Of a stretch of DNA of 64,000 bases, positions 8,250-21,154 are shown in pieces. Under the pieces are notes generated by a model that was given only the letters and a program-made list of their open reading frames with translations, had not been told where the DNA came from and did no database searches. Both the position numbers and the translations under genes were made by a program. The DNA comes from Schlegelella aquatica (GTDB taxonomy: Bacteria; Pseudomonadota; Gammaproteobacteria; Burkholderiales; Burkholderiaceae_C): NCBI RefSeq assembly GCF_026013905.1, contig NZ_CP110257.1, positions 1,054,001-1,118,000 of the forward strand. Direction: 5' to 3'. How positions within the stretch are numbered: the first letter of the stretch is position 1; the number at the start of each line of letters is the position of its first letter.

Positions 8250-8397
8250 AGCCGTCCTCGGCCGAGGCGCGGCCGCCCTCCTGGCACGCCTGGTGCCCGG
8301 GGTGGGTGGTGGCGCCCCGGCCGTGGCGGGTGGCCGCGCGGGAGACCGGGCGGCCTGCGGGCAGTGGCGCGGCGGCGCCGAGCCGGAGTGGGCGTGG

Positions 8398-9380: not shown

Positions 9381-9710
9381 TCACTGCGTCGGCGGACGCA
9401 CGATGATGTCGTTGCGCACGCTGCGCACGCCGGACACGGAGCGCGCCAGTTCGCCAGCGCGGGTCCGCTCGGCCTCGCTGCGTGCGAAGCCGGAGAGCTG
9501 GACCACGCCGTTGAGCGTTTCGACCTGGATGCGCATGGCGCTCACCGTCTCGTCCTGCGCGAAGCGGGTCTTCACGCGCGCCGAGATGGTCTTGTCGTCG
9601 ATGTAGTCACCGACGGAGCTCTGGCCGCTGGTGACGGCGCAGCCGGCGAGGGAGCCGAGGGTCGCGAGTGCCAGGAAAGTGGCGTGCAGCAGGCGTTTCG
9701 TCTTCTTCAT
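9381..9710 (-). CDS. BON-domain lipoprotein
   Basis: This 109-residue protein has a lipoprotein signal (LGSLAGC lipobox at about residue 23) and a single BON domain of the OsmY type, with VQLSGFARSEAERTRAGELA and VRNDIIV. BON domains bind phospholipid membranes or ligands, and OsmY-like proteins protect the envelope during osmotic and other stress. Start ATG 9710 has an AAGGAG site eight bases upstream. A consensus sigma-54 promoter lies 40-55 bases upstream, giving a predicted 28-base leader, so it seems to have its own RpoN-dependent promoter although it follows the glycosyltransferase gene by 73 bases. Confidence 0.9.
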   Translation of the reverse strand: MKKTKRLLHATFLALATLGSLAGCAVTSGQSSVGDYIDDKTISARVKTRFAQDETVSAMRIQVETLNGVVQLSGFARSEAERTRAGELARSVSGVRSVRNDIIVRPPTQ

Positions 9711-9747
9711 GTGATCTCCTTGAAGTGCACGAGGTGCGCCCACGCTG

Positions 9748-9765
9748 CCGCAAGCGGCGTGCCCG
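9748..9765 (-). promoter_or_regulatory. Sigma-54 (-24/-12) promoter of the BON lipoprotein gene
   Basis: The minus strand reads GGCACGCCGCTTGC, an exact match to GGCACG-N4-TTGC with the diagnostic GG-N10-GC spacing (GG at 9763-9762, GC at 9751-9750). Predicted transcription start is near 9738, 28 bases before the BON ATG and upstream of its ribosome-binding site. It is intergenic. Confidence 0.72.
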
Positions 9766-9783
9766 GCGCAGGACGAGCCGCGT

Positions 9784-11037
9784 TCAGGCAGCCGCCGGTT
9801 TGCCGCCCGCGCGAGCACTGCCGCCGCGTCGGCTCCTCTCCATGGGTGCCGCCTCCTCGGCCTCGGCCGGCGTCGCCCCCGCCCTTGCGGCGGGTGCGAC
9901 GGCCCGCAGCGGCGTCGGCGTCGGCGTCGCGCGGTGCGCGAGGCGGGTGAGCAGATCGGCGGTCTGAGCGATGGTGCGCGACAGGCAGAAGTGCTCGACG
10001 GCGCGCGCGCGGGCTCGCTGGCCCATGAGGCGCATGGCCTCGGGCTGCGCCAGCAGCTTCGCGATCTGCGCGCCCACGCCGTCGAAATCCCCTGGCGAGA
10101 CGAGCGCACCGGTGAGTCCGTGCTGCACCATGTCCGGCACCCCGCCCACACGGGTGGCGACGATGGGAAGGCCGCAGGCCATGGCCTCCATCAATGCCAG
10201 CGGCATGGCCTCGCTGTGCGATGTGGAGACGACGAGGTCCAGCTCGCTGAAGACGGCGGGCATGTCGTGCTGCAAACCCGCCAAGTGGGCGTAGTCGCCC
10301 ATCCCGAACTGCTCGATGAAGTGGGCGCACTGGCCCATCATCGGTCCGTCGCCGACGAGGACGAAGTGCGCATGCGGCTGCGCGCGGTGGGCCACCAGCG
10401 CCGCCCGCAGGAAGCTTTCCGGGCCTTTCTCCCAGGAGAGCCGGCCGACGAAGCCGACCAACGGTGCGTCCTCGGGGATGCCGAAACGCCGCCGCAGGGG
10501 GCCGTCGCGCACGCGGCGCGGCGTGAACACCTCGGTGTCGGCCCCGTTGGGGATGAAGTGCAGGCGCTCGGCGTCCACGCCCAGCACGAGGGCCTGGAGG
10601 TGGGCTGGACGGCACACCACGCACAGCTGCGTGCCGGCGAGGCGGTGCGCTTCCAGGTCGCCGATGGTCAGCTCGCGCCCGTGCACGGTGGCGAGCACCG
10701 GGGTGTCGGTCAACCGGCCGACCAACGCCCCCATCAGATGGGCGTTGGTCAGATGGCAGTGGATGAGGTCGATGTGCCGCGTGCGCACCAGGCTGGCCGC
10801 AAAGACGATCGACGACCAGCAGGGCTCGTCGGGGATCGGCGTGACGAGCACCTCGACGCCGAGTTGCCGCAAGGCCTCGCTGTGGCGGCTCTCCCAGGGG
10901 CACAGCACCGCCACTTCGAACCGCTCGCGCGGCAGCCGCTCCAGAAGGCGTTGCACGTAGGTTTCCATGCCGCCGACGATCGCGTTGCCGACGATCTGCA
11001 GCAGCTTCACGCGGGGGGAGTCGCAGCCTGCGCTCAT
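9784..11037 (-). CDS. Glycosyltransferase family 4 protein
   Basis: This 417-residue retaining glycosyltransferase has the GT-B fold of family GT4. The N-terminal domain begins VKLLQIVGNAIVGGMETYVQ, with the Gly-rich acceptor-side loop, and contains DLIHCHLTNAHLMG; the C-terminal nucleotide-sugar domain has VGFVGRLSWEKGPESFLRAA and the EAMPLALMEAMACGLPIVAT motif (ExxxxxxxE-type donor site). The last 60 residues are Ala/Arg-rich and probably disordered. It likely transfers a sugar at the cytoplasmic side of the membrane during surface glycan synthesis; donor and acceptor are unknown. It is the fourth gene of the minus-strand glycan run, 143 bases after the amidohydrolase. Start ATG 11037. Confidence 0.9.
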   Translation of the reverse strand: MSAGCDSPRVKLLQIVGNAIVGGMETYVQRLLERLPRERFEVAVLCPWESRHSEALRQLGVEVLVTPIPDEPCWSSIVFAASLVRTRHIDLIHCHLTNAHLMGALVGRLTDTPVLATVHGRELTIGDLEAHRLAGTQLCVVCRPAHLQALVLGVDAERLHFIPNGADTEVFTPRRVRDGPLRRRFGIPEDAPLVGFVGRLSWEKGPESFLRAALVAHRAQPHAHFVLVGDGPMMGQCAHFIEQFGMGDYAHLAGLQHDMPAVFSELDLVVSTSHSEAMPLALMEAMACGLPIVATRVGGVPDMVQHGLTGALVSPGDFDGVGAQIAKLLAQPEAMRLMGQRARARAVEHFCLSRTIAQTADLLTRLAHRATPTPTPLRAVAPAARAGATPAEAEEAAPMERSRRGGSARAGGKPAAA

Positions 11038-11180
11038 GCGTCACCACCCTCGCGGCTCAACAACAGAGGGGCCTCCAGCGGCCGCCCTGACCCCACAGTG
11101 CATACGGGGCCGACGTGCCGCCGTCCTCCGGTGCACGGTGAGCCGCACGCCTGGGGGCGTGCACCGACGCGTCGGGGATG

Positions 11181-12038
11181 TCATCGCGGCCGTGCTCCAC
11201 CGTGCCTGTGCCCTTTCCGGGCCGCGGCGTGTCGTTCGCGGTCAGGCCGCCAGGCCGCGGCCGTGCCCGCCCAGATGCGCTCGCGCCCTCTGGCATCGAC
11301 GTGCAGTTCGTCCAGCAGGTGCTCCACCCAACCCTTGCGCTCGGCGATGTGGGTTCCCGAGCAGGGCAGGAAGCAGTCGCTGCCGAACTGAAGCAGATCG
11401 GGTCCCAACACGTCCAGTGCCTTGGACAACACCTCCCCGCGGTAGGCGGGCGGGGGGCCGAACGAAATGTCGAAGCGGAACATCACCCGGTCCGGTGCGA
11501 CGCCGTGGATCAGCTCGATGAGGCCGACCGCGATGGCTTCGTCGCACCAGGGCCAGCCGAGGTGGGCGAGCGTGACTTTCAGGCCCGGGTACTCGCGCAG
11601 GGCCTCGAAGAAGGTCGGGCGGCAAAAGCGTCCCGAGCGCCCGTCGATGAAGATCCCGCTGTGAAAGAGCAGCGGCAGCCCGAGTTCGTGCGCAGTGGCG
11701 AAGAGCGGCTGCACCGCCTCGTCGTAGGGATACCACCCGGTGGGCACCATCTTCACCCCGCGCAGGCCCGAGTCCACGGCGCGGCGCAGGTCGATGGAGG
11801 ACTCGGGCCGGCGGGGGTCGACCACCGCGAAGCCGATGAGGCGGTCCTCGTGCCCCCGCACCAGCCGCGCCAGGTGCTCGTTGCCACGCCGCAGCGAAGC
11901 CGGGTCGTGGAGGGAATACCCCTCGCTCAGGAAGGGCGCCAGCAGCACGGCCATGTCGATGCCGGCCTCGTCCAGCGAGCGCAGCACGTCGTCCGCGCGC
12001 TCCTGGCCGGTGCAGTGGAGGTGGGCGTCGATGATCAT
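11181..12038 (-). CDS. Amidohydrolase-family (TIM-barrel metal-dependent hydrolase) protein
   Basis: This 285-residue protein begins MIIDAHLHCTG, the HxH metal-binding motif of the amidohydrolase-2 group, followed by LPLLFHSGIF (metal His), VTLAHLGWPWCDEAI (metal His) and FGSDCFLP (catalytic Asp), so the metal site looks complete. Relatives are decarboxylases, lactonases and hydrolases of small cyclic compounds. The stop of the upstream fusion gene lies seven bases before its ATG at 12038, so it is co-transcribed with glycan genes, an unusual setting that suggests a role in making or trimming a sugar-derived molecule. The substrate cannot be inferred. The C-terminal 25 residues are basic and variable. 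Confidence 0.85.
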   Translation of the reverse strand: MIIDAHLHCTGQERADDVLRSLDEAGIDMAVLLAPFLSEGYSLHDPASLRRGNEHLARLVRGHEDRLIGFAVVDPRRPESSIDLRRAVDSGLRGVKMVPTGWYPYDEAVQPLFATAHELGLPLLFHSGIFIDGRSGRFCRPTFFEALREYPGLKVTLAHLGWPWCDEAIAVGLIELIHGVAPDRVMFRFDISFGPPPAYRGEVLSKALDVLGPDLLQFGSDCFLPCSGTHIAERKGWVEHLLDELHVDARGRERIWAGTAAAWRPDRERHAAARKGHRHGGARPR

Positions 12039-12045
12039 GGCACTC

Positions 12046-15000
12046 TCAGGCCCCCGCGGCCTGCGCGAGCGCGGCCTGGGCGGCGCCAGGCCCGCTCTGA
12101 GCGAGGGCGGCTTCGGCCGCGCGCTTGCCGGCCAGGAAGGCGTGGTCGGAGTTGTAGTACTCCCACTCCGCATAGCGGCCGGCCAGGATCACGCGGTGGC
12201 CGGCCAGCCACTGCCGGATGCAGGCCACGTGCGCCGCGCGGGCATGGTCGTAGACGACGTAGGCGCCGGGCATGTCCACCTGGTGCGCGCACAGGATGCG
12301 GTCGTCCTCGCGCAGCATGCCGACTTTGCGGCAGTCGTCGATCACGCGGGCGATGAGCGCCTCCCCCTCGCACGGCAAGGGCTTGGAGGCCGAGTAGGTG
12401 ATCTCGCAGGTCAGCCCGAAGCCGCCGGGCGGGTTGCAGTAGGGGCTGGCGTTGCCCTGCACGAAGATGCGGTGGAAGACGGTGTCTTCAGGGTAGTAGA
12501 TCCAGTGCTTGTCGGTGATGTTCGCGCGCGCGATGCCGAGGTTGACGCAGCGCACCGAGGTGCTACGGAGCCCGCGCGCGGCGGCCCGCACATCGTCCGG
12601 TGCTTCCTCGCCGCAGGCGGCCACGAACTGCGGCAATGCCATCGTCGAGATGAGCGTGTCGTAGCGCAGGGTGCGGCCGTCGTCCAGCCGCACGGTGCGC
12701 TTGGACGGCGAGACGGACACGACGCGCGTGTTGAGCGCGACCTCGCACCGCAGGTGGGGCAGGAAGGCATCCATCAGCGCCTGGAAGCCGCCGCGCAGCG
12801 GGTAACCGAAGCGCGCGTTCGGACCCATGGGCTTCGGGGCGGGTTCGAGGGCCCCTTCGATCATCTGCTCCAAATCGGGCAGGGGCACCCGCCCGCCGAG
12901 CCAGGAGGTTTCCATCTCGCGCAGGGGCACGGCCCAGAGCTTCTCGTTGTAGGGCACCGCGAAGTGCTTGGCGATGCCCCAGCCCCAGACGCGGTGGATG
13001 AACTCCTCGAAATTCGCAGGAGGCTGCGGCGTGCCTGCGACGGCGGACGGGTCGCCCTTGAGGGGGCCGAAGCGGGCCTCGATCGCTCCGATCAGGCACT
13101 CCTTCAGCACCTGGGCGGGCAGCCCGTACAGCGAGCCCTGGAAGGGATAGCGGGTGTAGACGCCCTTGCTGTAGATCCACGCCTCGCGGTCTTGCCAGTG
13201 CACGTTGTCGCCCAGCAACTTGTCGTACAGCGCGAGCACGTACGGGTCGCTGGAGAACATGATGTGGCCGGCGTGGTCGAAGGTGAAGCCACGGTCCACC
13301 ACCGAGCGGCACCAGCCGCCGACGCGGCTCTCGCGCTCGACGAGCAGCGCATCGGCGCCCAAATGGTACGCGGCCGACAGGCCCGTCGGGCCGGCGCCGA
13401 TGATGAGGTGCCGAACCTCTCGCACTGCCGGCGCGGTGCCCGGCACGTCGGCCGGGGGCGCCAGCGGCACGGCAGGCGCCGGGTCGGCTGCGCCCGGCTC
13501 CATGCCCCCGCCCTGGCGGCGGCGTTCGACCGCCTCGCCGATCAGCGAATGCACGGTGCGCGCCGTCTCGTCCCACGACAGCCGCATCACGCATCCCAGC
13601 ATCTCGGCCACACGCTGCGTGCGCTGCTGCGGCGGCTCGGTGAGGGCCAGGCGGCAGGCCTGTATGAAGCCGGCCACGTCGTGCCCGATGTGCACCACAT
13701 CGCCGTACATGCCGATCACGTCGCGGATCGGGGTACTGACGATGGGCTTCTCCGCGGCCATGTACTCCAGGGTCTTGGTGGGGCTGATGTACTGCGTGGC
13801 CTCGTTCTGTGCGAAGGGCAGCAGGCACACGTCCCATCCCGCCACCAGGCCGGGCAGCACCTCGTAGGGCTGCATGTCCAGGTAGTGGAGGTTGGGCCGG
13901 GTGGGCAGGCTGGCCCGGTCGATCTTCACCACAGGCCCTACCATGACGATCTGCCATTGCGGATCGGCGTCGGCCAGAGCGGCCAGCAACGCCCTGTCCA
14001 TGCGCTCGTCGATGACGCCGAAGTAGCCGAGCCGCGGCCCGGGGATGTGCGTCTGCAGGCTCTCGGCCCGCCGCCACGCGGGCGAGGAGCGTGAGGAGCG
14101 ATCGGCGCGCGAGGGCGAGAAGTGCTGCGCATCCACACCGCTCGGAAAGCAGTGCACATGAGGATTCGCGTCGCGCTTGGCCTCGAAGAGGCTCGGGCCG
14201 CCGGTGAGCACCAGGTCCGCCGTCTTCAACAATGCCGACTCGCGCTGCCTCATCTGCCGGGGAGCGCCCATGAAGTTGGCGAGTTCGTCCATGCAGTCGT
14301 ACACCACTGCGCGGGGCTTCATCCCGGTGAGCAGCGGCAGGGCCATCGGCGTGTAGAACCACACCACATGGTCGTTCACGCCTTCGGCGCGCAGGTACTC
14401 GTCCAGCAACGGCTTGAGCAACGGGAGCTGGTCGTCGTGAAAGCCCGGAGCCTCGACGGCGGTGTGCGGCCGCAGCACAGTGACGTTCTCCTGCGGTCGT
14501 CGCACTTCCAGGCGGGCGGGACCTTCGTCTCGCACCGGCTCCTCGATGAAGTAGATGCGCCAGTCGCGCGCCAGGCGCGACATCAGCTGCTGCGGGCGCT
14601 GGAACACGAAATCCCAGCGCAGGTGGGAGAAGACGATGAGGCAAGACGGTGTCATGGACACTCCGGTCGTTCCAGGTAGGCGCCGCTGCCAGCGGCGCAG
14701 GGTGCGCGCATAGGGCAGGCACAGCCGCCGTCCGGGCGGGGCTCCCGGGGCCACAGGCGTGCCGGGGGCGGCCGCATCCCACAGACCGCTGTGGTGCCAG
14801 TGCGTGAGGTCGTTCCAGTCGTGGCGGTCCACGATGGGGTAGAGCGTCAGCCCCTCCACCGGCACGCCCGCACGGCGGGCGCGCTCCACTTCGCCGGCGA
14901 TCTCCTGCAACCACCGCGCGCGACCCGCGCCGACGTGGCTGGTTTCGGCCACGATCATCGGCAGGCGGTAGCGTTCCCAGGCCTCGGACAGCAGCGCGGC

Positions 15001-15876
15001 GAAGGGCCGTCGCCGCGGATCGTTCAGGTGCCAGTGCAGGCGTTGCTCGGTTTCCACCTCCCACTGCCCGTTGTGGTAGTGGTTGACGCCGAGCACGTCC
15101 AGCCATTGCGGCGCACCGCCCAGCTCCGCGGCCTGGCGGCCAGCGAGCATGTCCCACGCCTGCCACTGGTAGCTGCGCACTTGCTCGGCGAGGGGAGCGA
15201 GCTCGGGGCGCCCCGCCGGCGCCACCACGTGCACCAGCGGTTCGACGTGCAGGAAGCGGGCCCGTGGCAGGACGTCACGCATCGCCTTCATGGCCGCGAG
15301 GCTCGCGCGCACCAGGTGGCGCTTGATCTCGTAGCCGCTGGCGCGCGAGTCGCCTGCCCGCGGCCGACGAGCCGGACCGACCAGGCAGCCCTCGGACAGC
15401 GCCCAGGCCAGAAAGCCGATCTCGTTGACCGGGGTGATGACCGGGGCTTCTTCGCCGAGACGGCGCAACTCCTCGGCCACGGCGGCGGCGAAGTCCGTGA
15501 AGCGGGGCACCCAGCCGCCTTGGCGCAGGTCCACGTCGTCCGGGGCGCCGTAGTGCATCAGCGTCCACAGCACCTGCAGGCCGTGCCTGCGAGCGGCCGC
15601 GGCCATCAGGCGCAAACGCTGGAAGTCGTAGCGGCCGGCCGCGATTTCGGCCAAGCGCCATCCGATGCTCTCACGCACCGTGCGCACGCCCAGCCGCGTC
15701 ACTCGCGCGTAGTCCCCGTCCAGCCGGGCGAGATGGCCGGTGCTGCGCACCATGTCGAGGGCGATGCCATGCTCGTTTCGATGGTCGGCCCCCTCGAAAC
15801 CCGCGATCCAGAACGACCGCGGATTCGAAGGGGGCCGCTCGCACGATACGGCCGGGGTGCGCGTGGCGGGGTTCAA
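12046..15876 (-). CDS. Three-domain fusion: glycosidase-like (clan GH-A) + glycosyltransferase + UDP-galactopyranose-mutase-like flavoprotein
   Basis: A single uninterrupted frame of 1276 codons. Residues 20-400 form a GH1/GH5-like TIM barrel with candidate acid/base Glu152 (ITPVNEIGF) and nucleophile Glu311 (IVAETSHVG). Residues 408-790 are a GT-B glycosyltransferase starting with FSHLRWDFVFQRPQQLMSRL and containing ISPTKTLEYMAAEKPIVSTP. Residues 822-1276 are an FAD/NAD(P)-binding protein (IIGAGPTGLSAAYHL, VGGWCRS) resembling UDP-galactopyranose mutase and protoporphyrinogen-oxidase-like amine oxidases. The start is a TTG at 15876, the only start near the beginning of the barrel after the in-frame stop at 15901. 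Internal ATGs at 14655 (GGAG upstream) and 13503 could also start the second and third parts separately. It lies seven bases after the hemerythrin stop. Confidence 0.85.
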   Translation of the reverse strand: MNPATRTPAVSCERPPSNPRSFWIAGFEGADHRNEHGIALDMVRSTGHLARLDGDYARVTRLGVRTVRESIGWRLAEIAAGRYDFQRLRLMAAAARRHGLQVLWTLMHYGAPDDVDLRQGGWVPRFTDFAAAVAEELRRLGEEAPVITPVNEIGFLAWALSEGCLVGPARRPRAGDSRASGYEIKRHLVRASLAAMKAMRDVLPRARFLHVEPLVHVVAPAGRPELAPLAEQVRSYQWQAWDMLAGRQAAELGGAPQWLDVLGVNHYHNGQWEVETEQRLHWHLNDPRRRPFAALLSEAWERYRLPMIVAETSHVGAGRARWLQEIAGEVERARRAGVPVEGLTLYPIVDRHDWNDLTHWHHSGLWDAAAPGTPVAPGAPPGRRLCLPYARTLRRWQRRLPGTTGVSMTPSCLIVFSHLRWDFVFQRPQQLMSRLARDWRIYFIEEPVRDEGPARLEVRRPQENVTVLRPHTAVEAPGFHDDQLPLLKPLLDEYLRAEGVNDHVVWFYTPMALPLLTGMKPRAVVYDCMDELANFMGAPRQMRQRESALLKTADLVLTGGPSLFEAKRDANPHVHCFPSGVDAQHFSPSRADRSSRSSPAWRRAESLQTHIPGPRLGYFGVIDERMDRALLAALADADPQWQIVMVGPVVKIDRASLPTRPNLHYLDMQPYEVLPGLVAGWDVCLLPFAQNEATQYISPTKTLEYMAAEKPIVSTPIRDVIGMYGDVVHIGHDVAGFIQACRLALTEPPQQRTQRVAEMLGCVMRLSWDETARTVHSLIGEAVERRRQGGGMEPGAADPAPAVPLAPPADVPGTAPAVREVRHLIIGAGPTGLSAAYHLGADALLVERESRVGGWCRSVVDRGFTFDHAGHIMFSSDPYVLALYDKLLGDNVHWQDREAWIYSKGVYTRYPFQGSLYGLPAQVLKECLIGAIEARFGPLKGDPSAVAGTPQPPANFEEFIHRVWGWGIAKHFAVPYNEKLWAVPLREMETSWLGGRVPLPDLEQMIEGALEPAPKPMGPNARFGYPLRGGFQALMDAFLPHLRCEVALNTRVVSVSPSKRTVRLDDGRTLRYDTLISTMALPQFVAACGEEAPDDVRAAARGLRSTSVRCVNLGIARANITDKHWIYYPEDTVFHRIFVQGNASPYCNPPGGFGLTCEITYSASKPLPCEGEALIARVIDDCRKVGMLREDDRILCAHQVDMPGAYVVYDHARAAHVACIRQWLAGHRVILAGRYAEWEYYNSDHAFLAGKRAAEAALAQSGPGAAQAALAQAAGA

Positions 15877-15883
15877 GCCGGTG

Positions 15884-16483
15884 TCAGCGTTGTTGCGTCT
15901 TCATCGCATCGCCGCCCCTTCCGCCGGCGGGCAGCGGCGGGCTCTCCTCCTGCTCCTCGGCCGTCTCGGTGGATTCGGCTTCCATGCCTTCCTCTTCCTC
16001 CTCGGAGAGACCGAGCTCACGCTCGAGCTGCACCCGCCGTTCCATCATGTCCTCCAGCACGGCCTGCCAGTCCACCTTGGAGCGGCCGAGCTGCTCGAAC
16101 ATCTCGCCTTCCTCTTCCTTGATGTGGTGCTTGACGTACTCGCCGAGCACGGTGAACGTGGCCTTGTACTTGGGATCGTCCGGCGAGAGGTCGCGCACCT
16201 GGGCGATCAGTTGCTTGGCGCTGTCGTGCTCCACCTCGGCCTCCTCGACGAGGTCCTGCTCCTTGAGGGCCTGGCGCACGGCGGGGTAGAAGAGCTCCTC
16301 CTCCAACATCGCATGCAGCTCGAGCTCTGCGCAGGTTTGCTCCACCAGCTGCTGAGCGGTCTCGGGGTCGCTCTCGACGTCGATCTTCTCGAAGTCCCGG
16401 AAGGCCTTCTTCACGCGCTTGTGATCGTCCTTGAGCATCTGGAGGATCTCGTTGCGCGCGCTGGTGTTGTTGCGGCTGGCCAT
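15884..16483 (-). CDS. Hemerythrin HHE cation-binding domain protein
   Basis: This 199-residue protein is a four-helix hemerythrin-type protein with the expected His/Glu ligands: DDHKRVKKAF near residue 20, ELHAMLEEELFYP near 58, EHDSAKQLI near 86 and VKHHIKEEEGEMF near 120. Such proteins bind a non-haem di-iron centre and sense or buffer O2, NO or iron. The C-terminal 45 residues are Glu/Ser-rich and disordered. Start ATG 16483 has AAAGGAG upstream. A sigma-54 consensus promoter lies about 80 bases upstream, so this gene heads the minus-strand run that continues into the glycan fusion gene seven bases later. Confidence 0.92.
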   Translation of the reverse strand: MASRNNTSARNEILQMLKDDHKRVKKAFRDFEKIDVESDPETAQQLVEQTCAELELHAMLEEELFYPAVRQALKEQDLVEEAEVEHDSAKQLIAQVRDLSPDDPKYKATFTVLGEYVKHHIKEEEGEMFEQLGRSKVDWQAVLEDMMERRVQLERELGLSEEEEEGMEAESTETAEEQEESPPLPAGGRGGDAMKTQQR

Positions 16484-16561
16484 GGTGTGCTCCTTTGATG
16501 GGTAGTGGTCGTGGCGTGGGGCGGGCGCGGCCGGTGTGCCGTTCGCGCCATGCCTGCCGGG

Positions 16562-16579
16562 CGGCAATCGGCGTGCCGA
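16562..16579 (-). promoter_or_regulatory. Sigma-54 (-24/-12) promoter of the hemerythrin-glycan operon
   Basis: The minus strand reads GGCACGCCGATTGC, an exact match to GGCACG-N4-TTGC with GG at 16577-16576 and GC at 16565-16564, ten bases apart. The predicted start is near 16552, giving a 69-base leader before the hemerythrin ATG. Confidence 0.75.
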
Positions 16580-16603
16580 GGCGCGCCGGCGCTGCTCGGG
16601 GCG

Positions 16604-16622
16604 CTGGGAACGGCCCTTGCAC
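16604..16622 (+). promoter_or_regulatory. Sigma-54-like promoter of the small protein/GalU-like gene pair
   Basis: The plus strand reads GGAACGGCCCTTGCA, one mismatch (C to A at about -23) from GGCACG-N4-TTGCA, with GG at 16607-16608 and GC at 16619-16620. The predicted start near 16632 leaves an 18-base leader containing the AGGAG site at 16638-16642. It is back to back with the hemerythrin promoter, about 27 bases apart. Confidence 0.55.
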
Positions 16623-16649
16623 CGCAGGGCAGACGACAGGAGCCGCCTC

Positions 16650-16940
16650 ATGAGCCTCAAACCGTCCCGCCCCCATCGCCCGCGCGAGCGCGTCTCGCGC
16701 GAGGCACCTCACCCCGGCGCGCGCCGCGCCACCGGCCAGACCACGGTGGATCAGGCGCAAAAGCGTGTGCCTCGGCTGCCGCACGAACGCGACGAATCCG
16801 CCGACAGCCAGACCCTCATGGAGCCCGAGCAGAGCGAAGTGATGCGTCAGGCGCAGCAAGACGTGGAGCGCGGTCTGCAGGACACGAGCAAGGGCGAAGC
16901 CACGGATGCGGTGTACCGGCGCAACTTCCGCAAGGAGTGA
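16650..16940 (+). CDS. Small conserved hydrophilic protein of unknown function
   Basis: This 96-residue protein is strongly charged, rich in Arg, Glu and Gln, without a signal peptide or membrane helix. The C-terminal half (EPEQSEVMRQAQQDVERG, then a region ending TDAVYRRNFRKE) looks like an amphipathic helix with a conserved tail; the N-terminal half is basic and disordered. I do not recognise a characterised family; short proteins with a similar tail occur in Burkholderiales as hypotheticals. Start ATG 16650 has a clear AGGAG site. It is divergent from hemerythrin with its own sigma-54-like promoter and is followed six bases later by the GalU-like gene. Confidence 0.75.
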   Translation: MSLKPSRPHRPRERVSREAPHPGARRATGQTTVDQAQKRVPRLPHERDESADSQTLMEPEQSEVMRQAQQDVERGLQDTSKGEATDAVYRRNFRKE

Positions 16941-16945
16941 GGGCG

Positions 16946-17887
16946 ATGGAGCACGGGTGGTGGCGGGCCTGGGGCCGCTGGTGGCCGGGCGGGTGCGTGT
17001 CCGAGCGGCGCCCGCTGGAGACGATCGTCATGCCGCTCGCCAGCGCGCAGGGCGGCCTGCCGGTGGAGTTCTGGCCCCTGCACGGCCGGCCCTTGCTGTG
17101 GCATGCGTTGCGCGAAGCAGGGGAAGCCGGGGGCCGGCGGGTCATCCTCGTCGCAGACGAAAGCGTGCTTCGGTGGCGAGCGCTGCTGCGCGAGCTGACC
17201 ACGCAAGCCGGGCCTGAGCTGCAGGTGCGCATCGTGCGTGCGGCGCGGCCCGGCTGGCTCGGGGCCCTGGTCGCCGCAAGACCGCACCTGCGCAGACAGC
17301 CCTTCGCCGTGCTGGTGCCCTCGCTCGCCGCGCCGCAGCCGCAGGCCCCGCTCGTGCGGCTGGCCGAGCAGTTCCGCCGGTTGCGATCCAGCATCCTGTG
17401 CGTGCCCGCGCACGACCGCGGCGGTGTGTGCGTGGAGCTCGCCTCGCCCGATGCACCGTTGTGTCGGGTGCGAGCAGCCTATCCCGATCCACCTCACGGT
17501 CTCGGTCACGGTCCCAGGGTGCGTGCGGAGCGCGCAATCTTCACCCCGGCGATCTGGGACGCTCTCGATCGCGCGTCGCTGCCGCATCGCACGCTGCACG
17601 AGACGGGAGAAGCAGACCTGGTCTCGGCCTTGTTGCAGCAGGAACTGGTGTTCGCCTTCCGGCTCACGCAGCCTCTCTACGACGTGCGCGATGCGGCGCA
17701 GTGGGTCGAACTCCAATCGCTGGGCCTCGCGATAGAGAGAAGGGCGGCGTCGCATTTCTTGCCGCAAACCGCGCCCCGCCTCTGTGGCGAGGCACCGCCC
17801 GAGCGTCAGGCCGTGGGCGGCGCTCCCATCGTCCCCGCGGGCACCCGCGGCCGCGCTCGCCTCATCCTCGTGCACTCGCGCCGCTGA
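16946..17887 (+). CDS. Degenerate GalU-like nucleotidyltransferase paralogue
   Basis: This 313-residue protein aligns by eye along the length of UTP-glucose-1-phosphate uridylyltransferase (GalU): a start strand (ETIVMPLASAQGGLPVEFWP), HGRPLLWHALREAGEAG, RRQPFAVLVPS, a FTPAIWDALDR block, GEADLVSALL and the C-terminal FRLTQPLYDVRDAAQWVEL. Residues needed for catalysis in GalU are changed: the GxGTRxxPxTK nucleotide loop is ASAQGGLPVEF and the metal-binding Asp after AVL is replaced by PS. It is therefore probably not an active uridylyltransferase and may be a regulatory or sugar-nucleotide-sensing relative. It follows the small protein by six bases and precedes rpoN by 322 bases. Start ATG 16946. 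Confidence 0.7.
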   Translation: MEHGWWRAWGRWWPGGCVSERRPLETIVMPLASAQGGLPVEFWPLHGRPLLWHALREAGEAGGRRVILVADESVLRWRALLRELTTQAGPELQVRIVRAARPGWLGALVAARPHLRRQPFAVLVPSLAAPQPQAPLVRLAEQFRRLRSSILCVPAHDRGGVCVELASPDAPLCRVRAAYPDPPHGLGHGPRVRAERAIFTPAIWDALDRASLPHRTLHETGEADLVSALLQQELVFAFRLTQPLYDVRDAAQWVELQSLGLAIERRAASHFLPQTAPRLCGEAPPERQAVGGAPIVPAGTRGRARLILVHSRR

Positions 17888-18008
17888 AAGGGCCCCGGCG
17901 GGATGCCGTCCCACGCGGTGGCGCCTTTGCGCACGCAGTTATCACATCGCGCAAGCGCGGATGCCTCCGGTAACGCGGGGCACATGGGGACACGACCTTT
18001 TCAGACCG

Positions 18009-18026
18009 CTGGCACACACGTTGCTC
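18009..18026 (+). promoter_or_regulatory. Sigma-54 (-24/-12) promoter of rpoN
   Basis: The sequence TGGCACACACGTTGCT has the GG (18011-18012) and GC (18023-18024) ten bases apart and matches TGGCACG-N4-TTGCW except A for G at one position. Predicted start near 18036, giving a 174-base leader to the rpoN ATG. It sits in the 322-base gap 17888-18209, in which I see no other gene or terminator. It implies autoregulation of the sigma factor. Confidence 0.75.
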
Positions 18027-18209
18027 TCTTGAGGCGCGATCGCGGTCATGCTCTCGATTCAGCGTTTCGCCGCCAGCCGTCCCGGACTCGCGGCCCGCGT
18101 TCGCGCAGCCCCATGCGGCTCTCAATCGTCGGCCGGCGCCCTGGGGGCGTCGGTCCTTGTATCGCGCAGGCGCCCGACCCAAGCGGGCGGCGCTCGCCAG
18201 GGAGGACAC

Positions 18210-19643
18210 ATGAATTCACCGGTCATTCGACTCGAACACCGGCAACATCAGACCCTCACGCCCCGACTGCAACAGGCGGTGCGCCTGCTGCAGCTGTCGT
18301 CACTCGACTTCGCTCAGGAGATCCAGCAAGCCGTCGGCAGCAATCCTTTCCTGGAGGAAGACCCGGACGCGCACGTGGCGGCTGAAGGGGAAGGGCCCGC
18401 GCCGGTCGAGCCGGTGCCGAGTTGGGCGGAAGTGGCCCCCAGCGCCGCCCCCGTGAGCGAGGCCACGTGGGACCGCGAGAGCTGGGGGCCTGCCGGCGGG
18501 GGCTCCACCCGCAACCACAGCGGTGACGGTGAGTTGGATCTGGTCGAGATGGTCGCGGCGGAGGTGCCCCTGCGGCACCACCTGCACGGGCAGATCAATG
18601 TCCTGCCGCTGTCGGAGCGCGACCGAGCGCTGGCGGCCACCATCATCGAGGCGCTCGACGACGACGGCTACCTGCGCTTGACGCTGGAGGAACTGCGAGG
18701 CCTTGCGGAATGCTCCCCGGCGCCGGACGAGACTGAGATGAACGTGGCCCTCAAGCTCGTGCAGTCGCTCGAGCCGGCGGGCATTGCCGCGCGCGACGTG
18801 CGCGAGTGCCTGCTGCTGCAACTCAAGGAGATCGAGCCCGCCCAGGACCGCGATCTGGCCTGTCGCATCGTGAGCAACCACCTCGAGAAGCTGGCGATGC
18901 GCGACATCAACGGCTTGGCCAAGCTGGTGGGCGCCACGCCGGCGCAGGTGGAGGCGGTGTGCGAGCGCATCCGTCATCTCGATCCGCGCCCGGGCTGGCG
19001 GTTCGGCCCGTCCAACACGCAGTTCGTGACCCCGGACGTCATCGTGCGCAAAGTGCGCGGCGTCTGGACGGCCACGCTCAACCCCGACGTGGTGCCCAAG
19101 GTGCGGCTCAACCAGGTGTACGCCGAGCTGTTCCAGCGGCACCGCGACTCCAAGCACTCGGAACTCGCCGCCCACCTGCAAGAGGCGCGCTGGACGGTGC
19201 GCAACGTCGAGCAGCGCTTCGCCACGATCCTCAACGTCGCGCAAGCCATCGTGAAGCGGCAGCGCCACTTCCTCGAGTACGGCGCGCTCGCGATGAAGCC
19301 GCTCGGCCTGCGCGAGATCGCCGAGGAACTGGGTCTGCACGAGTCCACCGTCTCGCGCGTGACGAACAACAAGTACATGGCGACGCCGCTGGGCGTGTTC
19401 GAGCTCAAGTACTTCTTCTCGCGCGCCCTGCCCACGGTCAGCGGCGGGGCCTGCTCGGCCACCGCGATCCGCGGCCTCATCAAGGACATGATCGAGGCGG
19501 AGGACCCTTCCAACCCCTTGTCGGACGCGCAGATCGCCCGCCAGCTGGCACGCCAGGGACTGGCGGTGGCCCGCCGCACGGTGACCAAGTACCGCCAGAT
19601 GCTGAAGCTGCCGTCGGTGGAGAAGCGTCGGCGCCACAGCTGA
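18210..19643 (+). CDS. rpoN: RNA polymerase sigma-54 factor
   Basis: This 477-residue protein has the full sigma-54 layout: region I (residues about 1-50, RQHQTLTPRLQQAVRLLQLS and FAQEIQQAVGSNPFLEE), an acidic linker, the core-binding domain, the HTH (LREIAEELGLHESTVSRVT, contacting -12) and the C-terminal RpoN box ARRTVTKYRQ at about residues 454-463, which reads the -24 element. The usual final Glu of the box is Gln here. It directs transcription only with an AAA+ enhancer-binding protein, none of which is encoded nearby. ATG 18210 is favoured by the AGGGAGG site; an in-frame ATG at 18048 would add 54 atypical residues. No lptB, hpf or pts genes flank it as around the usual rpoN, so it may be a second copy. 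Confidence 0.95.
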   Translation: MNSPVIRLEHRQHQTLTPRLQQAVRLLQLSSLDFAQEIQQAVGSNPFLEEDPDAHVAAEGEGPAPVEPVPSWAEVAPSAAPVSEATWDRESWGPAGGGSTRNHSGDGELDLVEMVAAEVPLRHHLHGQINVLPLSERDRALAATIIEALDDDGYLRLTLEELRGLAECSPAPDETEMNVALKLVQSLEPAGIAARDVRECLLLQLKEIEPAQDRDLACRIVSNHLEKLAMRDINGLAKLVGATPAQVEAVCERIRHLDPRPGWRFGPSNTQFVTPDVIVRKVRGVWTATLNPDVVPKVRLNQVYAELFQRHRDSKHSELAAHLQEARWTVRNVEQRFATILNVAQAIVKRQRHFLEYGALAMKPLGLREIAEELGLHESTVSRVTNNKYMATPLGVFELKYFFSRALPTVSGGACSATAIRGLIKDMIEAEDPSNPLSDAQIARQLARQGLAVARRTVTKYRQMLKLPSVEKRRRHS

Positions 19644-19705
19644 GACGGGGGACGCCAGGGCCGGTGGCGGCCGGCCCCCCGGCCGGCACCGCTCACTGGT
19701 GCGAA

Positions 19706-19730
19706 AAGGCCGCGCCCCGGGCGCGGCCTT
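19706..19730. terminator. Bidirectional terminator between rpoN and the Gly/Tyr-rich gene
   Basis: A ten-base perfect stem (19706-19715 with 19721-19730) with loop CCCGG, bounded by AAAA on the left and TT on the right, lies between two convergent genes, so it can end transcription from both sides. Confidence 0.75.
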
Positions 19731-19750
19731 CGTGCTTCAGGTGGGCGCGT

Positions 19751-21034
19751 TCACTTCGACGCCTTGCCGGAGCCGGCGGACGAGCCGCTCGACCCGGGGC
19801 TCGACCCCTTGGCGCCGGGCTCCGAACCGGTGGCCGACCCGCTGCTGCCCGTCACGCCGGGCGACCCGGACGAGGCGCCCAGGACGTCGCTGCCCGAGGA
19901 GGAGCCGCTGGGAAGCCCGGTCGAGGTGGAGCCCACCGTGTTGCCGCTGCTGGCCGAGCCGGCCGCCGACGAGGTGCCGAGCCCCGAGGAGGCCGTGGCG
20001 CCGCCCGCAGGGCTCGACCCGGCCCCCGTGTCGCCGCTGGACTGGCCGGCCGCCTGGCCCTGAGACCCCGTGCGCCGGCTGCGACGCCACTCGTCGAACT
20101 CGGTCGAGAACTTCTTGTAGCGCTCCTGCCGCCACTGCTGATAGTCCTCGTCGAGCGCGCGCATCTGCTCATTGCGCCATTGCCAGTAGTCCGGATCGAC
20201 GTGCTCGCGGCCCTGGTGGCTGTAGCCGTGGAAGTCGCCGCTGCCCCCGTAGTTGAGGCCATACGTGCCGCGCGAGCGTTCGTCATAGGACTGCCCGCCA
20301 TAACCTCCGCTGCCGTAGCCGGCGTGCGCCGCAGGGCCGCCGCCGTAGCCCGTGCCCTGACCGCTGCCGTAACCGCCATACATGCTCGCGTAGCGGCCTT
20401 CCTCGTGACGCCCCGCCGGGGACCCCTGGTAGCCGCCTCGATAGCCGCCTCCTTCGTAGCCGCCTTGCGAACCTCCTTGGTAACCCCCTTGGTAACCCCC
20501 GTACGGCCCGCCCTGGCCGGCGCCTTGCGCGCCGCTGCGGCGGTAGCCGCCGAAGTCCTGTGAGCCGCGTTCGTGGGCCTGTTGGCCGCCGTACTGCCCG
20601 TACTGCGGCGCGCCCCAGTAGTCGCCCTGAGGGCCGTTGAAGTCGGCCTGCGAACCGCCCATGCGGCCCGCGCCATAGAGGCCTTCGCCGCCGCTGCGAG
20701 CGCCCTCCCAGCCTTCCGAGCCGCGTGAGCCGTAGCCGTAGCCCCCGCTGCCATACTGCGTGCCTCGCTGCCCGCCGGTGTAGTAGTCGCCCATCCCACC
20801 GCCTTGAGGGCCGCCGGGGCCGTCACCCTGATAGCCCCCGCCTCCCTGGTATCCGCCCTGGTAGCCCCCGTAGCCGCTCGCGCCTTGCCACGACCCCGAC
20901 TCGCGGGCCGACTCGTAGTCCCGGCCGCCCGAGCGGCCCTGCTGCCAGCGGTCGCCGTGACGCTCGTCGCTGCGCGACTGAGGGTCCTCGCGACCTTCGT
21001 CGCGCGATCGATCTCCATAGCTTCGCTGATACAT
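19751..21034 (-). CDS. Low-complexity Gly/Tyr/Gln-rich protein with a conserved WRNEQM-type domain
   Basis: This 427-residue protein begins with a charged Arg/Asp segment (MYQRSYGDRSRDEGRED), then about 220 residues of GGYQGG/YGGQ/SGGYG repeats, then a compact conserved stretch (DPDYWQWRNEQMRALDED and YQQWRQERYKKFSTEFDEWR), and ends in a Ser/Gly/Thr-rich tail. There is no signal peptide. The composition resembles phase-separating or prion-like proteins, while the aromatic, charged domain is found in Burkholderiales stress-associated hypotheticals. The start at ATG 21034 is supported by AAAGGAA; the upstream 64 codons of the open frame lack coding character. A sigma-54-like promoter is seen upstream. 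Function unknown; I infer an RpoN-controlled stress or structural role. Confidence 0.75.
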   Translation of the reverse strand: MYQRSYGDRSRDEGREDPQSRSDERHGDRWQQGRSGGRDYESARESGSWQGASGYGGYQGGYQGGGGYQGDGPGGPQGGGMGDYYTGGQRGTQYGSGGYGYGSRGSEGWEGARSGGEGLYGAGRMGGSQADFNGPQGDYWGAPQYGQYGGQQAHERGSQDFGGYRRSGAQGAGQGGPYGGYQGGYQGGSQGGYEGGGYRGGYQGSPAGRHEEGRYASMYGGYGSGQGTGYGGGPAAHAGYGSGGYGGQSYDERSRGTYGLNYGGSGDFHGYSHQGREHVDPDYWQWRNEQMRALDEDYQQWRQERYKKFSTEFDEWRRSRRTGSQGQAAGQSSGDTGAGSSPAGGATASSGLGTSSAAGSASSGNTVGSTSTGLPSGSSSGSDVLGASSGSPGVTGSSGSATGSEPGAKGSSPGSSGSSAGSGKASK

Positions 21035-21136
21035 CGTCGTTCCTTTCGTGGTGCGTCTGCTGTCGGCTGCGTGGCGGCACTGCCGCACCGTCTCGGGCCC
21101 GGTGCAACTGGGCCCTTCGGCAGCCCGCTGAAAAGC

Positions 21137-21154
21137 GAGCAACGCCTGTACCCA
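21137..21154 (-). promoter_or_regulatory. Sigma-54-like promoter of the Gly/Tyr-rich protein gene
   Basis: The minus strand reads TGGGTACAGGCGTTGCT, with GG at 21152-21151 and GC at 21140-21139, ten bases apart, and a full TTGCT -12 element; the -24 element is GGTAC rather than GGCAC. Predicted start near 21127 gives a 93-base leader. Confidence 0.4.

Follow-up and report, generated by a model that had tools for sequence, protein, structure and literature searches.

A second sigma-54 factor of Schlegelella aquatica and related Burkholderiales is predicted to serve envelope and stress genes through its own sub-class of -24/-12 promoters

We analysed a 64-kb stretch of DNA (the window), part of the 3.35-Mb single-contig genome of Schlegelella aquatica, which carries a sigma-54 gene, here called rpoN2, among envelope and glycan genes preceded by -24/-12 promoter-like sites. 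The gene (18210..19643, + strand) encodes 477 residues, with the Pfam AID, CBD and DBD domains above cut-off. An earlier reading of the letters without database searches (the sequence-only reading) had correctly taken it for a sigma-54 gene; its start was moved to 18210, the conserved start. The - strand encodes a BON-domain lipoprotein of 109 residues (9381..9710; PF04972, E 4.9e-20), a GT4-type glycosyltransferase of 417 residues (9784..11037; PF00534, E 1.7e-34), an amidohydrolase family protein of 285 residues (11181..12038; PF04909, E 3.5e-23), a single open reading frame (ORF) of 1276 residues (12046..15876) and a hemerythrin HHE-domain protein of 199 residues (15884..16483; PF01814, E 1.5e-15). 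The long ORF joins a weak GH1-like part to glycosyltransferase and FAD/amine-oxidase-like domains; PF01593 and PF13692 exceed the Pfam cut-off, and PF00232 (GH1) stays under it. This stretch had been described as a glycan run, with the correction that it includes this one three-domain ORF. The same triple fusion is seen in three Azohydromonas loci (L049, L051 and L052; 1212-1224 residues), and two-domain versions occur in other loci. On the + strand lie a small conserved protein of 96 residues without a Pfam family (16650..16940) and a putative nucleotidyltransferase-like protein of 313 residues (16946..17887), whose weak match to NTP_transf_3 (E 4.7e-4) is under cut-off and does not carry the previous label GalU-like. 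Beyond rpoN2 a Gly/Tyr-rich protein of 427 residues without a Pfam family is encoded on the - strand (19751..21034).

The whole 64 kb was scanned with a generic weighted -24/-12 score. The five sites named in the sequence-only reading are all present, close to where it had placed them and with the match quality it had given them. The exact core GGCACG-N4-TTGC precedes the BON gene (GGCACGCCGCTTGC, 9750..9763, -, 39 bp from the BON start) and the hemerythrin and glycan genes (GGCACGCCGATTGC-C, 16564..16577, -). One mismatch is found in the site before the small-protein gene (GGAACGGCCCTTGC-A, 16607..16620, +), which is divergent from the hemerythrin site, and one in the site before rpoN2 (GGCACACACGTTGC-T, 18011..18024, +), which has T at -26 and aligns with its counterparts in the related loci L044 and L045. 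The weaker site before the Gly/Tyr-rich gene (GGTACAGGCGTTGC-T, 21139..21152, -) has two mismatches and ranks about ninth in the window. The top scores, at 16564 (-), 9750 (-), 18011 (+) and 16607 (+), are all intergenic and correctly oriented. A possible sixth site, TGGCACG-CCTG-GTGCC at 8283-8297 (+), was absent from the earlier reading; it has one mismatch in TTGC, equals the fourth-ranked site (16607) at a score of 0.932, and lies in the gap between polA (end 8249) and a BrkB/YihY-type gene (ATG 8398).

Sites scoring at least 0.85 are no more frequent in the window than with permuted motifs (25 sites; permuted mean 24.4, standard deviation 16.9), and the Gly/Tyr-rich site is at chance level when taken alone. 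For this reason weak sites were used only if conserved in relatives, and otherwise strong sites only. The controls for the exact core were the backwards pattern, permuted cores and other spacings. The S. aquatica genome contains 31 exact cores but 8 matches to the backwards control. Among the matches listed (30 of 31), 23 are intergenic and at most 500 bp upstream of a gene on the same strand. A genome-wide scan had been proposed as a check of the sequence-only reading, with sites equally common at random positions as the outcome that would speak against it. This objection fails because 25 of the 30 listed sites are intergenic, in stretches that are ∼17% intergenic according to the gene caller.

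The genome carries two sigma-54 genes, one at 168 kb (rpoN1) and the other in the window, which supplies the copy count that had been asked for as a further check. The window protein belongs to the sigma-54 family by PF00309, PF04963 and PF04552, all over cut-off, and by an RpoN box reading ARRTVTKYRQ. Its nearest relatives are those of Aquabacterium sp. A7-Y (83% identity) and Caldimonas mangrovi (81%). A 68-protein tree separates 12 RpoN1 from 56 RpoN2 rows at a single branch supported 100/100; part of the rows were labelled by their RpoN box, and four long branches are unsure in place. The box ARRTVTKYRQ is found in 56 of 56 RpoN2 rows, and the 12 RpoN1 rows have ARRTVAKYR[ED] (ARRTVAKYRE in the RpoN1 of S. 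aquatica). The recognition-helix region differs as well: the RpoN2 consensus is VTNNKYMATP and the 12 RpoN1 rows read VT[TN][AQ]KY, or, over the longer region, SRVTNNKYMATP in the RpoN2 consensus and SRVTTAKYMATP in the RpoN1 of S. aquatica. Sigma-54 structures show the helix-turn-helix in contact with DNA at about -14 to -12 and the RpoN domain in contact with the -24 element (passages of PMC5505868). Judged from these alignments and the tree, the window rpoN belongs to a separate sigma-54 paralogue group, which only a minority of the examined Burkholderiales genomes carry.

For comparison we collected 80 related rpoN2 loci (1.54 Mb), which were picked by RpoN2 similarity and some of which end at contig ends. 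Gene order is partly kept among them: at least one of ten window neighbours is found in window orientation in 50 of the 80 loci, and at least three in 21. The hemerythrin gene is a neighbour in 26 loci (and in 8 more in the opposite orientation), the BON gene in 27, a glycosyltransferase domain in 23, an FAD domain in 10 and the amidohydrolase in 9. The Gly/Tyr-rich protein and the small protein, neither of which has a Pfam family, also recur near rpoN2 (19 and 15 loci). The exact core occurs 158 times in the 80 loci, compared with a mean of 8 (maximum 40) for permuted cores and 3-16 at other spacings. Intergenic DNA holds 148 of these 158 matches, but just 19 of the 287 matches to permuted cores. 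Upstream sites scoring at least 0.93 precede rpoN2 in 69 of 79 cases, hemerythrin in 21 of 38, BON in 14 of 24, the small protein in 7 of 15 and the Gly/Tyr-rich protein in 7 of 19; the comparison level, from island genes outside the window's families, is 26%. For the Gly/Tyr-rich gene an upstream site of at least 0.87 is present in 15 of 19 relatives, and the form GG[TA]ACA-N4-TTGC of its site is also found in the two nearest relatives, L044 and L045.

The 139 intergenic exact sites with a gene ahead in these loci were split by the base at -11, which follows TTGC. Before rpoN2 (29 sites) this base is G in 17, A in 9 and T in 3 and never C; before other genes (110 sites) it is C in 102, T in 6 and G in 2 (Fisher p 6e-23). 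We refer to the two groups as class A and class B, to which the rpoN2 site and the hemerythrin site of the window belong, respectively. With the relaxed score the sites upstream of rpoN2 (69 of 79 genes) have G in 42, A in 22, T in 5 and C in none, and C at -11 is found before hemerythrin in 20 of 21, the Gly/Tyr-rich gene in 7 of 7, BON in 10 of 14 and the small protein in 5 of 7. The classes also differ in T at -26 (7% in class B vs 33% in class A) and in G directly 5′ of TTGC (12% vs 83%). Class B sites lie a median of 56 bp from the start codon, and matches to their relaxed form GGCA-N7-TGCC are intergenic in 333 of 399 cases, in 77 of the 80 loci, compared with 4.5-38.5 intergenic matches at other spacings. 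As the promoter of rpoN2 is of a sub-class, without C at -11, that is unlike that of the regulon, it is probably read by RpoN1 and not by RpoN2.

If class B serves RpoN2, its sites should follow the presence of rpoN2 among genomes. The classified matches of the class B core (ending in TTGCC) in genomes without RpoN2 are almost all intragenic, so that only intergenic sites are informative. In five genomes with RpoN2 47 of 60 such sites are intergenic, against 2 of 41 in five genomes without it, which were partly picked for many TTGCC matches (p 4e-14); leaving out S. aquatica itself, the counts are 32 of 43 and 2 of 41. By genome they are 15/17 in S. aquatica, 8/13 in G096 (first 30 of 47 core sites), and 9/10, 8/10 and 7/10 in G052, G066 and G119 (10 loci each of 20, 15 and 17 sites), compared with 0/11 in G004 and G072 together (30 of 46 core sites) and 0/10, 2/10 and 0/10 in G082, G022 and G014 (10 each of 13, 22 and 14). 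The gene caller was trained on RpoN2 loci and gave similar intergenic shares in the sets with RpoN2 (14-17%) and without it (10-14%). These counts indicate a distinct promoter sub-class that tracks the presence of RpoN2.

Of the 11 Sigma54_activat matches in the genome, eight are strong. When the 80 loci were searched with all eight, an activator was found in 27, and the best match was always to the same one of the eight (52-75% identity), a bacterial enhancer-binding protein with REC-AAA-Fis architecture that is encoded outside the window, at 946,376-947,746. In a survey of 120 genomes of the family, reduced to 119 by excluding one with no match at all (G093), this activator family is present in 17 of 18 genomes with RpoN2 and in 3 of 101 others (best E below 1e-120), where G069 (51%) was counted as having RpoN2 and the fragmentary or borderline cases G011, G035, G045, G068 and G104 as lacking it. 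The exception among the former, G053, has a 49% relative 1.5 kb from one rpoN2. The three with the activator only are G068, where a divergent rpoN with an RpoN2 box is found (L144), G104, which is 76% complete with its rpoN in fragments and of unsure type, and G016, a partial match. Activator and rpoN2 are at most 20 kb apart in 16 of 20 same-contig pairs and lie on separate contigs in G116. Full rpoN2 genes are duplicated in three genomes: in G119 and G078 each copy has an adjacent activator (one of them in two pieces in G078), and in G053 there is one weak relative among the matches listed. On a Comamonadaceae plasmid an rpoN adjoins this activator (61%). Class B sites also precede two activator genes in relatives. 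Co-occurrence and linkage thus mark this family as the predicted dedicated activator of RpoN2. Genome G011, which lacks both a full RpoN2 and the activator family, has a 178-residue RpoN2-like stretch (71% identity) in a 191-residue frame, possibly a decayed module.

In S. aquatica the activator lies in an island of its own (L278, 938000-957000), where it follows the gene of a PAS hybrid histidine kinase. The kinase gene faces GlsB-type, DUF883-like and DUF421 genes across two divergent -24/-12 sites (951304, -, and 951350, +), and a third site is found at 954253 (+). A candidate binding sequence was seen in other loci: eleven of the 80 loci have the inverted repeat TTGCGGYAA-N3-TTRCCGCAA placed between their class B and rpoN2 promoters, at distances of 45-68 bp to the former and 109-174 bp to the latter. 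One activator could therefore drive both rpoN2 and class B genes. These eleven loci lie between L075 and L121 and have the two promoters divergent; distances from the repeat to the GG of the class B site cluster near 45, 56 and 67 bp, with exceptions at 47 and 51, and may reflect helical phasing. In other genera the half-site pair CGGYA-N5-TRCCG has 73 matches, 51 of them intergenic, against 18-27 matches with 1-9 intergenic at gaps of 2, 3, 4, 6, 8, 9 and 10; the count at gap 7 is inflated because class B promoters themselves match. A first, looser test for the enhancer gave 34/145 upstream vs 13/148 downstream and is weakly informative.

The genes behind the sites point to the function of the regulon. 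In S. aquatica the Pfam families found there are DUF3606, cytochrome c, GT9, GT4, glycogen debranching enzyme, MgtC, outer-membrane barrel, FimV, BON, PagL, Ku, short-chain dehydrogenase and a PAS/GAF protein, as well as a lipocalin whose site is intragenic; 5 of 20 target proteins scanned have no Pfam family. Behind the 110 sites of the relatives that do not precede rpoN2, the first 25 of 56 families include Response_reg (24, of which 11 with HATPase_c), hemerythrin (9), BON (8), barrel (5), DUF2383 (4), DUF883 (4), GlsB-type (3) and glycosyltransferases (2), and one CsbD-like and one Ku-like protein were recognised by eye. Ku, BON, DUF3606, DUF883, GlsB-type and similar families have roles in stress, and in E. 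coli many families of this kind depend on RpoS. By these annotations the genome-wide targets are predicted to be envelope, glycan and stress genes. RpoS is present in S. aquatica (TIGR02394, 422.7 bits), and the idea that RpoN2 replaces it was dropped for this reason. RpoN2, being of the sigma-54 type, also falls outside a general stress response defined by a sigma-70-type master regulator. The main text of a starvation transcriptome paper on Roseateles depolymerans (PMC10037100) mentions neither rpoN nor sigma-54.

Taken together, we consider it probable that RpoN2 and a dedicated activator run an envelope and stress regulon through a promoter sub-class of their own, with RpoN2 itself fed by RpoN1. 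The PAS hybrid kinase would phosphorylate the REC-AAA-Fis activator under some stress, and the activator would then open the RpoN2-holoenzyme at class B promoters, typically [CG]GGCACG-N4-TTGC-C. Their targets would be envelope, glycan, iron/oxygen and general-stress genes throughout the genome and, in this locus, the hemerythrin/glycan operon and the BON, small-protein and Gly/Tyr-rich units. The class A promoter of rpoN2 would be read by RpoN1, which would make a two-step cascade from RpoN1 through RpoN2 to the regulon. We infer that RpoN2 is the reader of C at -11 and RpoN1 that of the rpoN2 promoter, that the activator pairs with RpoN2 in S. aquatica, and that stress or stationary phase is the inducing condition. 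The sequence-only reading had proposed a dedicated rpoN copy for a surface-glycan and stress regulon. The paralogue group, the site-packed loci and the genome-wide targets support it, with three amendments from the comparison: the predicted regulon is genome-wide and extends beyond this locus, rpoN2 has a promoter of another sub-class that is probably read by RpoN1, and the gene of the likely dedicated activator is found at 946 kb and not in the window. A more far-reaching proposal is that general stress and envelope responses are based on sigma-54 in a large set of Burkholderiales. There a duplicated sigma-54 would have gained its own -11 C code, a kinase/activator pair and a genome-wide protective regulon, and would stand below RpoN1 in a feed-forward cascade in which one activator drives rpoN2 via RpoN1 and the stress genes via RpoN2; for this the chances seem evenly balanced.

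Several observations weigh against the proposed RpoN2 regulon. Per Mb, TTGCC cores are not significantly more frequent with RpoN2 than without it (2.15 vs 1.76, p 0.13; net of control p 0.07), the latter group being taken without G069, G011 and thirteen low-completeness genomes. Outside the rpoN2 islands, and with central matches excluded, the relaxed form GGCA-N7-TGCC has 8 intergenic and 9 intragenic matches in 270 kb from genomes with RpoN2 and 2 and 11 in 181 kb from genomes without it, a slight enrichment. In S. aquatica C at -11 is found in just 15 of 25 intergenic sites and in one of the five window sites (hemerythrin); the code is therefore softer in its clade. The BON site has G at -11 in the window and in the two nearest relatives, and both divergent sites of the activator island have T. 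The activator is encoded 126 kb from rpoN2 in this genome, and 30 of the 80 loci have none of the ten window neighbours. The clustering of sites near rpoN2 is in part a matter of selection, because the loci were chosen by RpoN2 similarity. The enhancer candidate of the other genera was not found in S. aquatica: a matrix built from 38 of its sites gave nothing near the window genes, and 30 target loci were at chance (2 of 30 over the null 95th percentile).

Some of these observations fit another explanation, in which RpoN1 and RpoN2 form one largely interchangeable sigma-54 pool and C at -11 reflects promoter strength or the activator. The loose -11 in S. aquatica and its mixed state in G096 would be expected, as would the whole-genome TTGCC counts, and the promoters bound in vitro by the two sigma-54 paralogues of Bradyrhizobium are largely shared (passages of PMC13207237). 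A single pool does not readily account for intergenic TTGCC sites being 2 of 41 without RpoN2 and 47 of 60 with it, for the lack of C at -11 of the rpoN2 promoter among both exact (0/29) and relaxed (0/69) sites, or for the consistent difference between RpoN1 and RpoN2 in both DNA-contact motifs, and in R. solanacearum rpoN1 and rpoN2 are not interchangeable (passages of PMC4676750). We regard it as unlikely.

The consensus of class B reads as an almost perfect inverted repeat, and GGCA-N7-TGCC is much commoner than other spacings, as if the sites were symmetric operators of an ordinary dimeric regulator. This reading was rejected because the sites are directional: the asymmetric GGCACG-N4-TTGCC occurs 108 times and the two symmetric forms 5 times each, one-sided exact sites point toward the gene start in 49 cases and away in 3, and relaxed sites agree in 135 and disagree in 24. 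The median of 56 bp to the start codon and the way class B follows sigma-54 and its activator also argue against operators, which leaves them a very small probability. That sigma-70 or RpoS transcribes the locus, with the -24/-12 likeness due to chance in a GC-rich genome, would suit the presence of RpoS, the resemblance of several targets to families known from RpoS regulons and the chance level of sites scoring 0.85, but is highly improbable given the 31 vs 8 exact cores, their intergenic placement (25 of 30 listed) and their conservation in relatives.

A second rpoN is kept in several Burkholderiales, R. solanacearum among them. If the RpoN2 regulon is real, RpoN2 gains a job in envelope and stress functions, a partner in one enhancer-binding protein family and a promoter code that is readable from the genome sequence. 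Position -11 would then decide between sigma-54 paralogues in a second, independent case, for which VTNNK in the helix-turn-helix and T and Q in the RpoN box are candidate residues. Protective genes usually credited to RpoS would come under activator-gated, ATP-dependent control.

A literature search of titles and abstract openings found no description of this arrangement; related systems are known in part. In Cereibacter (Rhodobacter) sphaeroides position -11 discriminates RpoN1 from RpoN2 promoters (PMC11999139 and PMC3162934, citing Poggio 2002, 2006). As proposed here, its paralogous sigma-54 factors have separate regulons, separate activators and promoters that differ at -11. However, it is an alphaproteobacterium, and its regulons serve nitrogen fixation and flagella, whereas here envelope and stress genes are predicted as targets, the discriminating base is C, and rpoN2 has a -24/-12 promoter of its own.

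Closer in descent is Ralstonia solanacearum, also of the Burkholderiales, which is likened here without a claim of orthology. A -24/-12 site precedes its rpoN2, rpoN1 is needed, with rpoN2 expression abolished in an rpoN1 mutant (PMC4371752), and the two genes do not substitute for each other (PMC4371752, PMC4676750). No metabolic role was observed for rpoN2 (PMC4676750), and the passages of these two papers describe no RpoN2 regulon or dedicated activator. A link to stress is found in Burkholderia pseudomallei, where katE expression needs RpoN2 (PMC4745423). The rpoN of the B. pyrrocinia plasmid pBPJTT (L281) has the same ARRTVTKYRQ box as the window RpoN2 but is ∼47% identical to it, on a long tree branch and with mixed -11 bases around its locus. 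Its neighbours are of a stress type (PRC-barrel, CBS, DUF3008, DUF1328, DUF3175, treY and malQ), and several -24/-12 sites lie between genes there.

RpoNp of Bradyrhizobium sp. DOA9 is likewise a second, replicon-borne sigma-54 factor with a part in stress adaptation, a small regulon and a shifted motif (passages of PMC13207237, as for the following). Its motif changes beside GG and GC (TGG to CGG, TGC to CGC) and not at -11, and gel shifts show largely shared binding by the paralogues. Specialised RpoN paralogues are thus a known kind of system, to which the present case would belong; what appears unusual is the predicted stress and envelope regulon of a sigma-54 with its own promoter sub-class and its own activator.

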